Shown piece after piece: positions 17,897 to 20,288 of a DNA stretch of 64,000 bases. Position 1 is the first letter of the stretch. Each line of letters begins with the position of its first letter. Position numbers and translations under genes: made by a program. Source of the stretch: Abyssibius alkaniclasticus (GTDB lineage: Bacteria > Pseudomonadota > Alphaproteobacteria > Rhodobacterales > Rhodobacteraceae); the NCBI RefSeq assembly GCF_020447305.1, contig NZ_CP095732.1, forward strand, positions 62,001 to 126,000, read 5' to 3'. The notes under the pieces are model-generated. The model saw only the letters and a program-made list of their open reading frames with translations, made no database searches and had not been told where the DNA came from.

Positions 17897-18103
17897 ATGG
17901 CCACAGGCACCGTGAAATGGTTTAACGCCACCAAAGGTTTTGGGTTCATCCAGCCAGACGGCGGAAGCAAAGACGTATTCGTTCATATTTCGGCGGTTGA
18001 GCGCGCCGGCCTGTCGGGCCTGCCCGATGGCCAGAAAGTGACCTTCGACCTTGAGTCGGGTCGCGATGGCCGCCAGTCGGCGACCAACCTGGCGCTGGCA
18101 TAA
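17897..18103 (+). CDS. cspA: Cold-shock domain protein (CspA family)
   Basis: 68 residues forming a single cold-shock domain: RNP1 KGFGFI and RNP2 VFVHIS motifs bind single-stranded nucleic acid. An AGAGGAG ribosome site lies upstream of the ATG and a clear terminator follows, so it is monocistronic. The roughly 100-base region before the start could be the structured leader usual for csp mRNAs, but no specific element is visible. Confidence 0.93.
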
Positions 18104-18223: not shown

Positions 18224-18973
18224 TTAGTTGCTGGCCAGCTGCGCAATCAGCGCCGCTTGCGAGATCGGCAGGTGAACACCGCGGGCATCGGCCCAGATAT
18301 TTTCGCCGCTGACATCAAGGCAACGACGGCCGCCGAACAGATCGCCCGCTGTCATGAAGCGCACGGTGCGGATTGTCAGGGTCGTGTCGACCATCACGCC
18401 GAGAATATCGCCGATCACAACGCCGTTCTGGTCAACCGCACGCTGGCCTTCAAAGGCCGTGGTGTTGCCGATCAGGTTGCAGCCTGCGCCATTGTCGCCA
18501 TGGGCATAGCCGGTGGCCGTGCTTGCAGGGATTGTGGCGCCGCCACCACCCGTGCCTGTGCCAATGTCAACGCCAACCTGGGTGCCGCCACCCGACGTGC
18601 CGTCACCGCCGCCCGTGCCGCCGCCCGTGCTGACGCCCCCGGTCACGCCGCCGCTGCCAACGCCAAGATTGACGCCAATGCCACCGTCACCGCCGGTGCC
18701 GCCACTGCCGCCTGAGCCGCCGATATTCACGCCGACATCAAGACCGCCACCTGAGCCGCCATCGCCACCCGAACCGCCGTCACCGCCGTCATCACCCGAG
18801 CCACCAAGGTTCACGCCGACATTGACACCGCCGCTGCCGCCAAGATTGAGGTTCACCCCGAGCGACTGCGCCTGGGCCGCTGTGCCCAGCAGGGAAACAC
18901 ACGCAAGCAGGTATGCACCTTGCAGCAGGCTGCGACCGAAGATTGGAGCGCTCATTACTTTAGTATGTGCCAT
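18224..18973 (-). CDS. Exported glycine-rich repeat protein with C-terminal PRC-barrel-like domain
   Basis: 249 residues: a signal peptide ending TAAQA (residue ~35); about 110 residues of low-complexity repeats built on GVNLGGSG, GGDGGSGG and GVDIGTGTGG; then a folded C-terminal domain of about 95 residues (AVDQNGVVIGDILGVMVD, two Cys) that resembles a PRC barrel. The repeats alternate V/I-x-V-N/D with glycine runs, as in surface or matrix proteins. AAAGGA eight bases before the ATG supports the start. It faces the exported-protein/LuxR operon across a 290-base gap with a CtrA-like box. Function unknown. Confidence 0.7.
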   Translation of the reverse strand: MAHTKVMSAPIFGRSLLQGAYLLACVSLLGTAAQAQSLGVNLNLGGSGGVNVGVNLGGSGDDGGDGGSGGDGGSGGGLDVGVNIGGSGGSGGTGGDGGIGVNLGVGSGGVTGGVSTGGGTGGGDGTSGGGTQVGVDIGTGTGGGGATIPASTATGYAHGDNGAGCNLIGNTTAFEGQRAVDQNGVVIGDILGVMVDTTLTIRTVRFMTAGDLFGGRRCLDVSGENIWADARGVHLPISQAALIAQLASN

Positions 18974-19139
18974 TTGATATTCCTTTCATGTGTTTGCGAA
19001 GCGGCCCGTATCTGGGCTGGATCGCCTCGATCAGTTGCCTATTCGTCCTATGGGTGAAGGCTAGCACCGGGCGGTAAGATTGTGTTATAGTCCTAAGGTA
19101 TTACGCATGAATATTAGGGCCAAAGTGTGAAGCCGCGCG

Positions 19140-19154
19140 TTAAAGTTGTGTTAA
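19140..19154. promoter_or_regulatory. CtrA-like box TTAA-N7-TTAA
   Basis: Exact TTAA, seven bases, TTAA, followed by C, in the divergent gap between 18973 and 19264. This is the textbook full site for the cell-cycle/motility regulator CtrA of alphaproteobacteria. It lies 109 bases before the plus-strand operon and 166 bases before the glycine-rich gene. Confidence 0.55.
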
Positions 19155-19162
19155 CTTAATAA

Positions 19163-19220
19163 AATCAAACCCAAGGCCGTTTTCCCTTCTATCACAGGAG
19201 AAAAACGGCTTAGCTTGGTT
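19163..19220 (+). other. Long imperfect hairpin in the leader of the LuxR operon
   Basis: GCCGTTTT (19176-19183) pairs with AAAACGGC (19202-19209), and the flanks AACC-AAG and CTTGGTT extend the stem with an internal loop. It ends 43 bases before the ATG at 19264, so it would sit in the mRNA leader if transcription starts near the CtrA-like box. Confidence 0.4.
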
Positions 19221-19263
19221 CAACTCTAGAGAATTTTTTGCAATCGGAAGGAGGGTGAAGCGC

Positions 19264-19614
19264 ATGAAAATCTGGCCTGGATACGCTATGCCCACGGCAC
19301 AGCGCAGCCGGTATGCCTTCGCTTTCATACTACTCGCCTATACGTTGTCAGGCGTTCTTTCCCTCAACCCTGCCGCATTGGCCGCACAAACGAATCGCAG
19401 CCCGGTTGCAATCGAGCTTGGTGCGGCAATGCCGAACGAGCCCTATCTTGAAATCATTGAATCGCTTGGGGATTCCGGGTTTTTGATCGAGCAGATCAAC
19501 CGCACCTGGTTGAACCGCATCCGCATTATTGCCGTGAATGACCAGATTCGCCGCGAAATCGTTATTTCCCAATCGACCGGGCAGATATTGCGTGACGTGG
19601 CTTATGCCCGTTAG
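19264..19614 (+). CDS. Small exported protein, possibly PepSY-like
   Basis: 116 residues: a signal peptide or N-terminal anchor (residues ~14-42, ending ALAAQ), then one small domain whose second half (NRIRIIAVNDQIRREIVISQSTGQI) has the beta-strand plus SxxTGxI ending seen in PepSY-type domains. AAGGAGG lies ten bases before ATG 19264; a GTG at 19255 is too close to that site. It is followed 39 bases later by the LuxR-type gene, so they probably form an operon. Family assignment is tentative. Confidence 0.55.
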   Translation: MKIWPGYAMPTAQRSRYAFAFILLAYTLSGVLSLNPAALAAQTNRSPVAIELGAAMPNEPYLEIIESLGDSGFLIEQINRTWLNRIRIIAVNDQIRREIVISQSTGQILRDVAYAR

Positions 19615-19653
19615 CACCAAAATTTTGACGCGTTTATTAACCAGGACAATGCC

Positions 19654-20205
19654 ATGATCAAAAAGCGCCCCATCAAATTCCGCAAGATCATACGCGGGGT
19701 TCTGATTTTTCAGGTGGTCTGCACGTCGCTGTTCCTGTTCAAGGTGATTGCAGATCTCTTCGCCATTCCGTTGTTCTTTGTGCCCTGGAGCGCGCTTGAA
19801 AGTGTTGAGATCCTGTCGACCTTTGGCATGTTGATCGGCGTTTTCACCAGCTTCTGGCTGATCTCGCTGATGGAAAAGCGCAGCACGCAGGTTGAAGAGC
19901 GTGTGCGCGCCGCCTCGGGCGATTTTCACAACTATATTCAGGCGCAGTTCAATGCCTGGAACCTGACGCCGACCGAAAAGACCGTGGCGACGCTGGTGAT
20001 CAAGGGGTTTTCCAACCACGAGATTGCCGATTTGCGCGGCACGAGTGAATCGACCATCAAATCGCAACTCACCTCGATCTTCAAGAAATCCAACATGTCC
20101 ACGCGCCAGCAGCTTGTGTCATGGGTGGTGGAAGATCTGGTTGAAAAGCTGCCGACCGAGCATCAGCCGGAGCTTGACACACCAAATGGCGCGCAGCCTG
20201 CCTGA
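19654..20205 (+). CDS. Membrane-anchored LuxR-type (GerE) transcriptional regulator
   Basis: 183 residues: two membrane helices (about 13-37 and 48-71), a short linker with helical character, and a C-terminal LuxR helix-turn-helix at about 103-162 ([24 protein letters not shown] and following). There is no receiver or autoinducer domain. The layout implies a one-component regulator that acts from the membrane, perhaps sensing through the small exported protein encoded just upstream. Target genes unknown; the divergent glycine-rich gene is the obvious candidate. Confidence 0.78.
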
Positions 20206-20212
20206 GGCGGTT

Positions 20213-20288
<76 letters not shown>

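Follow-up and report, generated by a model that had tools for sequence, protein, structure and literature searches.

A small exported PepSY-like protein and a membrane-anchored LuxR/NarL-type regulator, encoded side by side in the window (the whole stretch of 64,000 nucleotides analysed here, G000:C1:62001-126000, part of a genome that is a single 3.2-Mb contig), belong to a pair that recurs throughout the host's bacterial family. A palindrome is found upstream of most of these pairs at their usual site. Within the clade of the window regulator the pair is linked to a glycine-rich exported protein, and a second motif is present. Here, we propose with moderate confidence, on the basis of sequence comparison, that the pair is a co-component module which would control its own operon through the palindrome and which, in the window clade, would have acquired a changed operator together with control of the glycine-rich gene, these parts being taken jointly.

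Organization of the locus

The original prediction described three genes around one divergent gap, and all three were recovered in the ORF listing of the window, as presented in Table 1. It had also suggested that the arrangement forms a system. Relatives of all three genes are present elsewhere and the same arrangement recurs, so that chance does not account for it. The ORF of the small gene covers 19255-19614 (+), its likelier start being the ATG at 19264, just ahead of which GGAGGG can be observed by eye. The regulator starts 39 bp downstream of the end of this gene. Searches with the glycine-rich protein and the small protein gave zero matches in Pfam (E up to 10) and zero in NCBIfam (E up to 1). 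Two direct-repeat-like stretches lie inside the divergent gap. An ordinary cold-shock domain protein at 17897-18103 (+) adjoins the glycine-rich gene, and the tRNA at 20213-20288 (-) is a tRNA-Ala according to ARAGORN, with anticodon cgc, which is odd for Ala.

Table 1. Coordinates of the features in the window, with strand and the basis of each assignment.
Feature	Position	Strand	Basis
Glycine-rich exported protein, 249 aa	18224-18973	-	ORF, GVNLGGSG-type repeats
Non-repeat C-terminal domain of the glycine-rich protein	18227-18532	-	two Cys invariant in 8 relatives
Divergent gap common to both sides	18974-19263		281 bp to ORF 19255 (18974-19254), 290 bp to ATG 19264
Candidate operator of the clade, window copy ATAGTCCTAAGGTATTAC	19087-19104		motif search; rank 2/63,983, window left out of training
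Small exported PepSY-like partner, tail-less	19264-19614	+	ORF, family comparison, predicted structure
Membrane-anchored LuxR/NarL-type regulator, 183 aa	19654-20205	+	Pfam, hydropathy, family profile
Predicted TM helix 1, ~residues 11-33	19684-19752	+	hydropathy
Predicted TM helix 2, ~residues 51-73	19804-19872	+	hydropathy
GerE/LuxR HTH, residues 103-157	19960-20124	+	Pfam PF00196, E 3.1e-10

The membrane regulator and its PepSY-like companion

The regulator had been read as a two-helix membrane protein of LuxR type, a description upheld by two hydrophobic stretches in the hydropathy profile and by the Pfam match to GerE. The C-terminal GerE domain scores 40 bits against a cut-off of 23.5, which places the protein in the LuxR/NarL group. 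The basic N-terminus, followed by two hydrophobic stretches with the GerE domain at the C-terminal end, predicts a cytoplasmic HTH and no more than a short loop in the periplasm. Alignment of the 14 relatives that constitute profile A1 revealed conserved TM segments in which Q20 and G62 are invariant. With this profile and one genome per genus, the family was found in 180/295 genomes of the host's bacterial family. Sixteen genomes of other families gave weak matches only (best 1.5e-5), and in an order-level search all genomes among the matches listed belong to the host family. The 275 regulator hits over all loci were reduced to 211 distinct regulators; these counts depend on the choice of loci, and the loci behind them and behind the tree include some that were selected because of the glycine-rich gene or taken in as weak paralogues. 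The window genome carries three copies, one of which sits after trpB (locus L141). When distinct regulators with 2.9 kb or more of upstream DNA are considered, 91/146 occupy this position downstream of trpB, which is probably the ancestral place of the regulator. In many of these loci a DUF2237-like gene and pth, both named by eye, lie downstream.

The small exported protein had been suggested as an input of the regulator, and it proved to be a constant companion. For 178/189 distinct regulators whose upstream DNA extends to 1.5 kb or more, a PepSY-type gene lies upstream (170 of core type, 8 of the second type only); at 2.9 kb or more this applies to 136/146 (128 core plus 8 second type). Within loci L061-L200, 135 regulators have 1 kb or more of upstream DNA; a PepSY-like core gene of the same orientation lies no more than 562 bp away in 127 of them, and 173/173 core hits were located upstream of a regulator. 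The reciprocal comparison, made by hand in 90 genomes, placed 50 of 51 PepSY-family places (E <= 1e-7) ~0.9 kb or less upstream of a regulator on the same strand; the sole exception, G093:C5, has no regulator within the 6.5 kb read. Since linked members served to build the profile, this count speaks for this PepSY family and not for PepSY proteins at large. Among the 128 core-type pairs that have 2.9 kb or more upstream, 39 are away from trpB, the usual site, and therefore the pairing is not mere synteny at one place. At the cut of at least 1.5 kb there are 75 core-type pairs with no trpB in view, many of these loci carrying merely 1.5 kb upstream. Neither PepSY type is present upstream in 11/189 regulators (L089, L157, L192, L208, L210, L271, L278, L281, L282, L286, and L287), the glycine-rich-linked one of G273 included. 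In L089, L157, and L192 another exported-looking protein occupies the partner's place, as judged by eye. The one in L192, a trpB locus (L192:3517-4173 (-)), contains an EF-hand-like stretch (E 2.1e-5, 24.3 bits against a cut-off of 25).

The PepSY likeness of the small protein is an addition to the original prediction. The window protein gave zero match to the Pfam PepSY and PepSY_2 profiles. Weak PepSY_2 matches were obtained for 6/13 of its relatives with E up to 1 and for 8/55 with E up to 0.01, and the partners linked to b561 are clear PepSY_2 proteins in 2/2 tested (E 6e-18 and 2.7e-15). The model of the window protein displays one helix and four strands, with block pLDDT of 95-98 over residues 41-90. 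Foldseek returned nothing for this model at E <= 0.001. In a fold comparison, PepSY-type chains, 7ath (UipA) among them, together with 4exr and 3nqy, which we take to be of PepSY type, were mixed with equal-scoring unrelated chains at Z under 8. The window protein is here called PepSY-like, as a divergent form.

Tails and other linked genes

The conserved part of the partners is the globular core, not the tail. In the 180 partners without glycine-rich linkage the tail has a median of 73 aa, with a median of 78% G/D/S/N/E, compared with 3-31 aa in the 5 glycine-rich-linked partners (Mann-Whitney p = 2.8e-4, kinship being ignored). The partner of the trpB copy in the window genome ends in a tail of GVGVDINLGASG type, similar to the repeats of the glycine-rich protein in the window. 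In the glycine-rich clade, the repeats may have been transferred to a gene of their own. At the second copy in the window genome, L142 (G000:C1:2164751-2175245), the partner has a long Asn-Gly tail and the pair is preceded by an exported Asn-Gly-rich protein, with TadE and Tad-domain genes in between. A Met-rich protein with cupredoxin-type matches is convergent to that pair. Within the clade of this second copy, an exported Asn-Gly-rich protein stands ahead of the pair in L080, L099, L108, L129, and L142 and not in L090, while L117 carries too little DNA to be scored. Furthermore, nine regulators adjoin a b561-like gene (L280, L283, L284, L285, L288, L193, L200, L289, and L015). The b561-linked loci also carry a PepSY-type gene; a two-component system might have been expected there.

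Comparison with known systems

In Vibrio cholerae, DbfQRS comprises a small periplasmic PepSY protein and a two-component system, and the PepSY protein DbfQ binds the sensor DbfS (PMC12714742). The present module is similar in that a small exported PepSY-type gene, at times two in a row, lies directly upstream of a membrane-bound regulator. It differs in that a single membrane LuxR-type receiver without a kinase is found where DbfQRS has a histidine kinase and a response regulator. Neither a histidine kinase nor a response regulator was found by eye among the ORFs around the window pair, which thus lacks the DbfQRS-type composition.

VtrA/VtrC and ToxR/ToxS are co-component systems, each a membrane-tethered transcription factor with an exported partner, and some control an adhesin or autotransporter (PMC9214523). 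The module resembles these systems in its membrane-tethered transcription factor with an exported partner encoded alongside. In those systems the HTH is of ToxR/CadC type and lies at the N-terminus, the membrane is crossed by one TM helix, a domain is present in the periplasm, and the partner, which is lipocalin-like, is encoded downstream (PMC9214523). In the window pair the HTH is of LuxR type and C-terminal, there are two TM helices with only a short loop, and the partner, PepSY-like, is encoded upstream. An N-terminal CadC/ToxR-type HTH is absent from the window regulator, its HTH being the C-terminal GerE, and homology does not place it with VtrA/VtrC. As in co-component systems, a membrane transcription factor and an exported partner are conserved as a gene pair (topology by hydropathy, export by eye). 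As judged from the sequences, the module is a member of neither VtrA/VtrC nor DbfQRS by homology.

Transmembrane LuxR regulators with a much larger membrane part reportedly occur in Eggerthella lenta; they share a membrane-anchored LuxR-type HTH with the window regulator, and to our knowledge no PepSY partner is known for them. A literature search in which subscription journals were thinly covered yielded no description of a membrane LuxR regulator with a PepSY partner.

The glycine-rich clade and its candidate operator

The glycine-rich protein contains 28.9% Gly, with GVNL/GVNI-type repeats at four places and a signal-peptide-like start, as seen by eye. Its C-terminus was modelled with pLDDT 48. 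A PRC-barrel was considered for this region but not adopted, the window copy reaching E 0.063 and 13.7 bits against a Pfam cut-off of 21.2; a PRC match of any kind was obtained in 2/8 glycine-rich members (best E 0.0095). The C-terminal domain was found in 5/295 genomes by single-sequence search and in at least 11/394 genomes, at no fewer than 15 places (>=15), by profile search with 13 candidates scored per genome. Among the matches listed, 9/15 places are near a regulator, in six genomes (the window genome, G244 twice, G169, G273, G220:C33 twice, and G339 twice). The other 6/15 of the matches listed have no regulator near, and five of them adjoin icd, a gene named by eye. Loci of the icd-adjoining kind, with the same C-terminal domain and no membrane LuxR regulator near, are L211, L229, L230, L231, and L233. 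A second, distant membrane LuxR-type regulator (L208:7656-8210 (+)) stands beside the glycine-rich cluster of G244.

The linkage of regulator and glycine-rich protein, which had been proposed from the window, holds in the window's own clade (6/6 genomes) and does not extend to the regulator family as a whole, in which such a neighbour is rare (7/211 regulators, in six genomes). The distance between glycine-rich gene and regulator is ~0.8-4.5 kb, and both order and distance vary among the six genomes, the gene being on both sides in G244 and G220 and ~4 kb off in G339. With subfamily profile A5, constructed from the window regulator and four found beside glycine-rich genes, each of the six genomes yielded one regulator scoring 220-285 bits, the next score being 179; G339, also from the glycine-rich search, was outside the profile. 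In a tree of 204 regulators (7/211, under 120 residues, were left out), the six glycine-rich-linked regulators group with the long-branch row L271 at SH-aLRT 97. The glycine-rich label requires 2 changes on this tree against a shuffled mean of 6.0, and 0/500 shuffles were as low. The recognition region of the HTH reads ~STxKSQxSAIFRKS in the clade and GTVKAQTNAIYRKA in the family.

A motif, ATagtcCcaagGgccgAT, is common to eight regions upstream of linked glycine-rich genes, with LL 43.1 compared with a mean of 28.0 and a maximum of 31.8 in 20 shuffles; this subset, which excludes the second G339 gene, was picked after a weaker run on 12 regions. For those 12 mixed clade regions, LL was 41.1 at w=18 (maximum 33.8 in 6 shuffles) and 31.7 at w=16 (maximum 31.2), and w=14 remained within the shuffles. 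When one genome at a time was left out, the clade sites ranked 1 to 5 among 13,984-63,983 locus positions, a result that is not fully independent, since one and the same search had also selected the sites. Because of this shared upstream motif, we infer that the regulator may control the glycine-rich gene. Alternatively, the gene might not be a target but a lineage-specific neighbour that was passed on together with the regulator as a hitchhiker. The restriction to six genomes, and the six of fifteen listed places, five beside icd, that have no regulator near, would agree with such inheritance. It is nevertheless unlikely, given that the linkage persists despite varying order and distance and that the upstream regions have a motif in common.

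A palindrome upstream of the modules

An initial motif run on 181 upstream stretches picked up Asp-rich coding repeats instead of an operator. In the 91 gaps after trpB, a wide-type palindrome, CATAAACC-NN-GGTTTATG, was found with LL 628, compared with 75.5-77.2 in three shuffled sets (width 18). With a site called when its score exceeded the 99th percentile of shuffled maxima, the palindrome is present at 77/98 trpB-linked modules and at 46/79 other core-type modules, or at 16/33 strictly non-trpB ones with at least 2.9 kb upstream. It is rarer elsewhere: 2/9 b561 rows, 1/11 remaining rows, and 0/7 glycine-rich-linked rows. An exact match to the 16-mer was found at 27 sites, distributed over 25/179 genomes, against 5 sites for the reversed control. 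Twenty of the 27 sites are at modules: 25 loci around exact sites were read, with a module in 19 and none in 6, G056:C23, beside a regulator by position, adds one, and G077:C137 is left out of the 20. The palindrome is probably the operator through which the regulator would control its own operon. An intrinsic terminator was rejected as its source in the trpB gaps, there being no T-run and the palindrome also standing at about half of the strictly non-trpB modules; moreover, G+C-rich terminator-like hairpins stand beside it in several gaps, as seen by eye. In the window's divergent gap no wide-type palindrome was found, the best score being 3.2 bits against a shuffled 99th percentile of 12.3. 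The window genome contains no exact 16-mer, and its 6 one-mismatch 14-mer sites, compared with 13 for the control, are nothing above chance. One of these 6 precedes the TadE gene found at the second copy. The clade motif and the wide-type palindrome have the same centre, CC-NN-GG.

The concentration of exact sites at the module itself would also suit an autoregulated membrane switch in which the PepSY protein is the main output and not a sensor, a signal such as lipid state or membrane stress being read by the TM helices of the regulator. Long, freely varying tails and conserved TM segments point in the same direction. We regard this as quite unlikely, since it is the core and not the tail of the partner that is conserved, as expected of a binding domain, and since a PepSY partner, DbfQ, binds a sensor in V. 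cholerae (PMC12714742). That the palindromes belong to another regulator, the pair being merely co-transcribed, is improbable: a module driven by a different factor would look alike, yet the exact sites accompany modules (20/27) and a different motif is found in the clade whose HTH recognition region has changed.

Proposed mechanism

In the co-component mechanism that we prefer, the exported PepSY-like protein would act outside the cytoplasmic membrane and contact the regulator at its short periplasmic loop or at its TM helices. The regulator, held in the membrane, would bind DNA through its C-terminal LuxR/NarL HTH. In the family at large it would act mainly on its own operon via the CATAAACC-NN-GGTTTATG palindrome. 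In the window clade, with a changed operator, it would act on the divergent glycine-rich gene as well as on its own operon via the candidate site in the gap (19087-19104). The genes, their conserved pairing, both motifs, and the clade-specific linkage are established from sequence; the contact between the proteins, the assignment of both motifs to this regulator, the direction of control, and the signal are predictions. As a weak hint, the Asp-rich tails of most partners, and the one locus at which a protein with an EF-hand-like stretch replaces the partner, might point to a divalent cation such as calcium, or to the state of the envelope, as the signal.

By analogy, the best reading would be a co-component switch similar in operation to ToxR/ToxS or VtrA/VtrC, yet assembled from different parts. 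The pairing counts, the reciprocal 50/51, and the clear PepSY_2 match of b561-linked partners argue for it, as do the statistics of the wide-type palindrome, the clade linkage (6/6), the tree support of 97, the clade motif, and the fact that the analogues VtrA/VtrC and DbfQ on DbfS work in this way. Counted against it are the lack of a Pfam match for the window partner, the non-discriminating fold matches, and the 11/189 regulators without a PepSY gene. The wide-type site is missing in 7/7 glycine-rich-linked rows and ~half of strictly non-trpB modules; the one-mismatch sites of the window genome (6 vs 13 in the control), the 6/15 listed glycine-rich places without a regulator, and the post-hoc motif subset count in the same direction.

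Biological meaning

Whether the module stands for a new co-component class, we judge to be evenly balanced. Such a class would combine a PepSY-like protein with a two-helix membrane LuxR/NarL regulator, be present in most sampled genera of the host's family, and be autoregulated via the palindrome, with recurrent recruitment and a change of operator and tail in one clade, all taken jointly. Under recruitment, copies would repeatedly run low-complexity exported proteins, glycine-rich here and Asn-Gly-rich elsewhere, or cytochrome b561. In the clade, the operator would have changed, and the partner's usual fused repeat tail is missing, with a separate glycine-rich exported protein alongside. PepSY partners are known as inputs of histidine kinases, as in DbfQRS; here, one is paired with a kinase-free membrane transcription factor in 180/295 sampled genera. 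The module would provide a compact path from the envelope to a promoter, for which an operator is predicted, and its regulator would be a candidate controller of low-complexity exported proteins.
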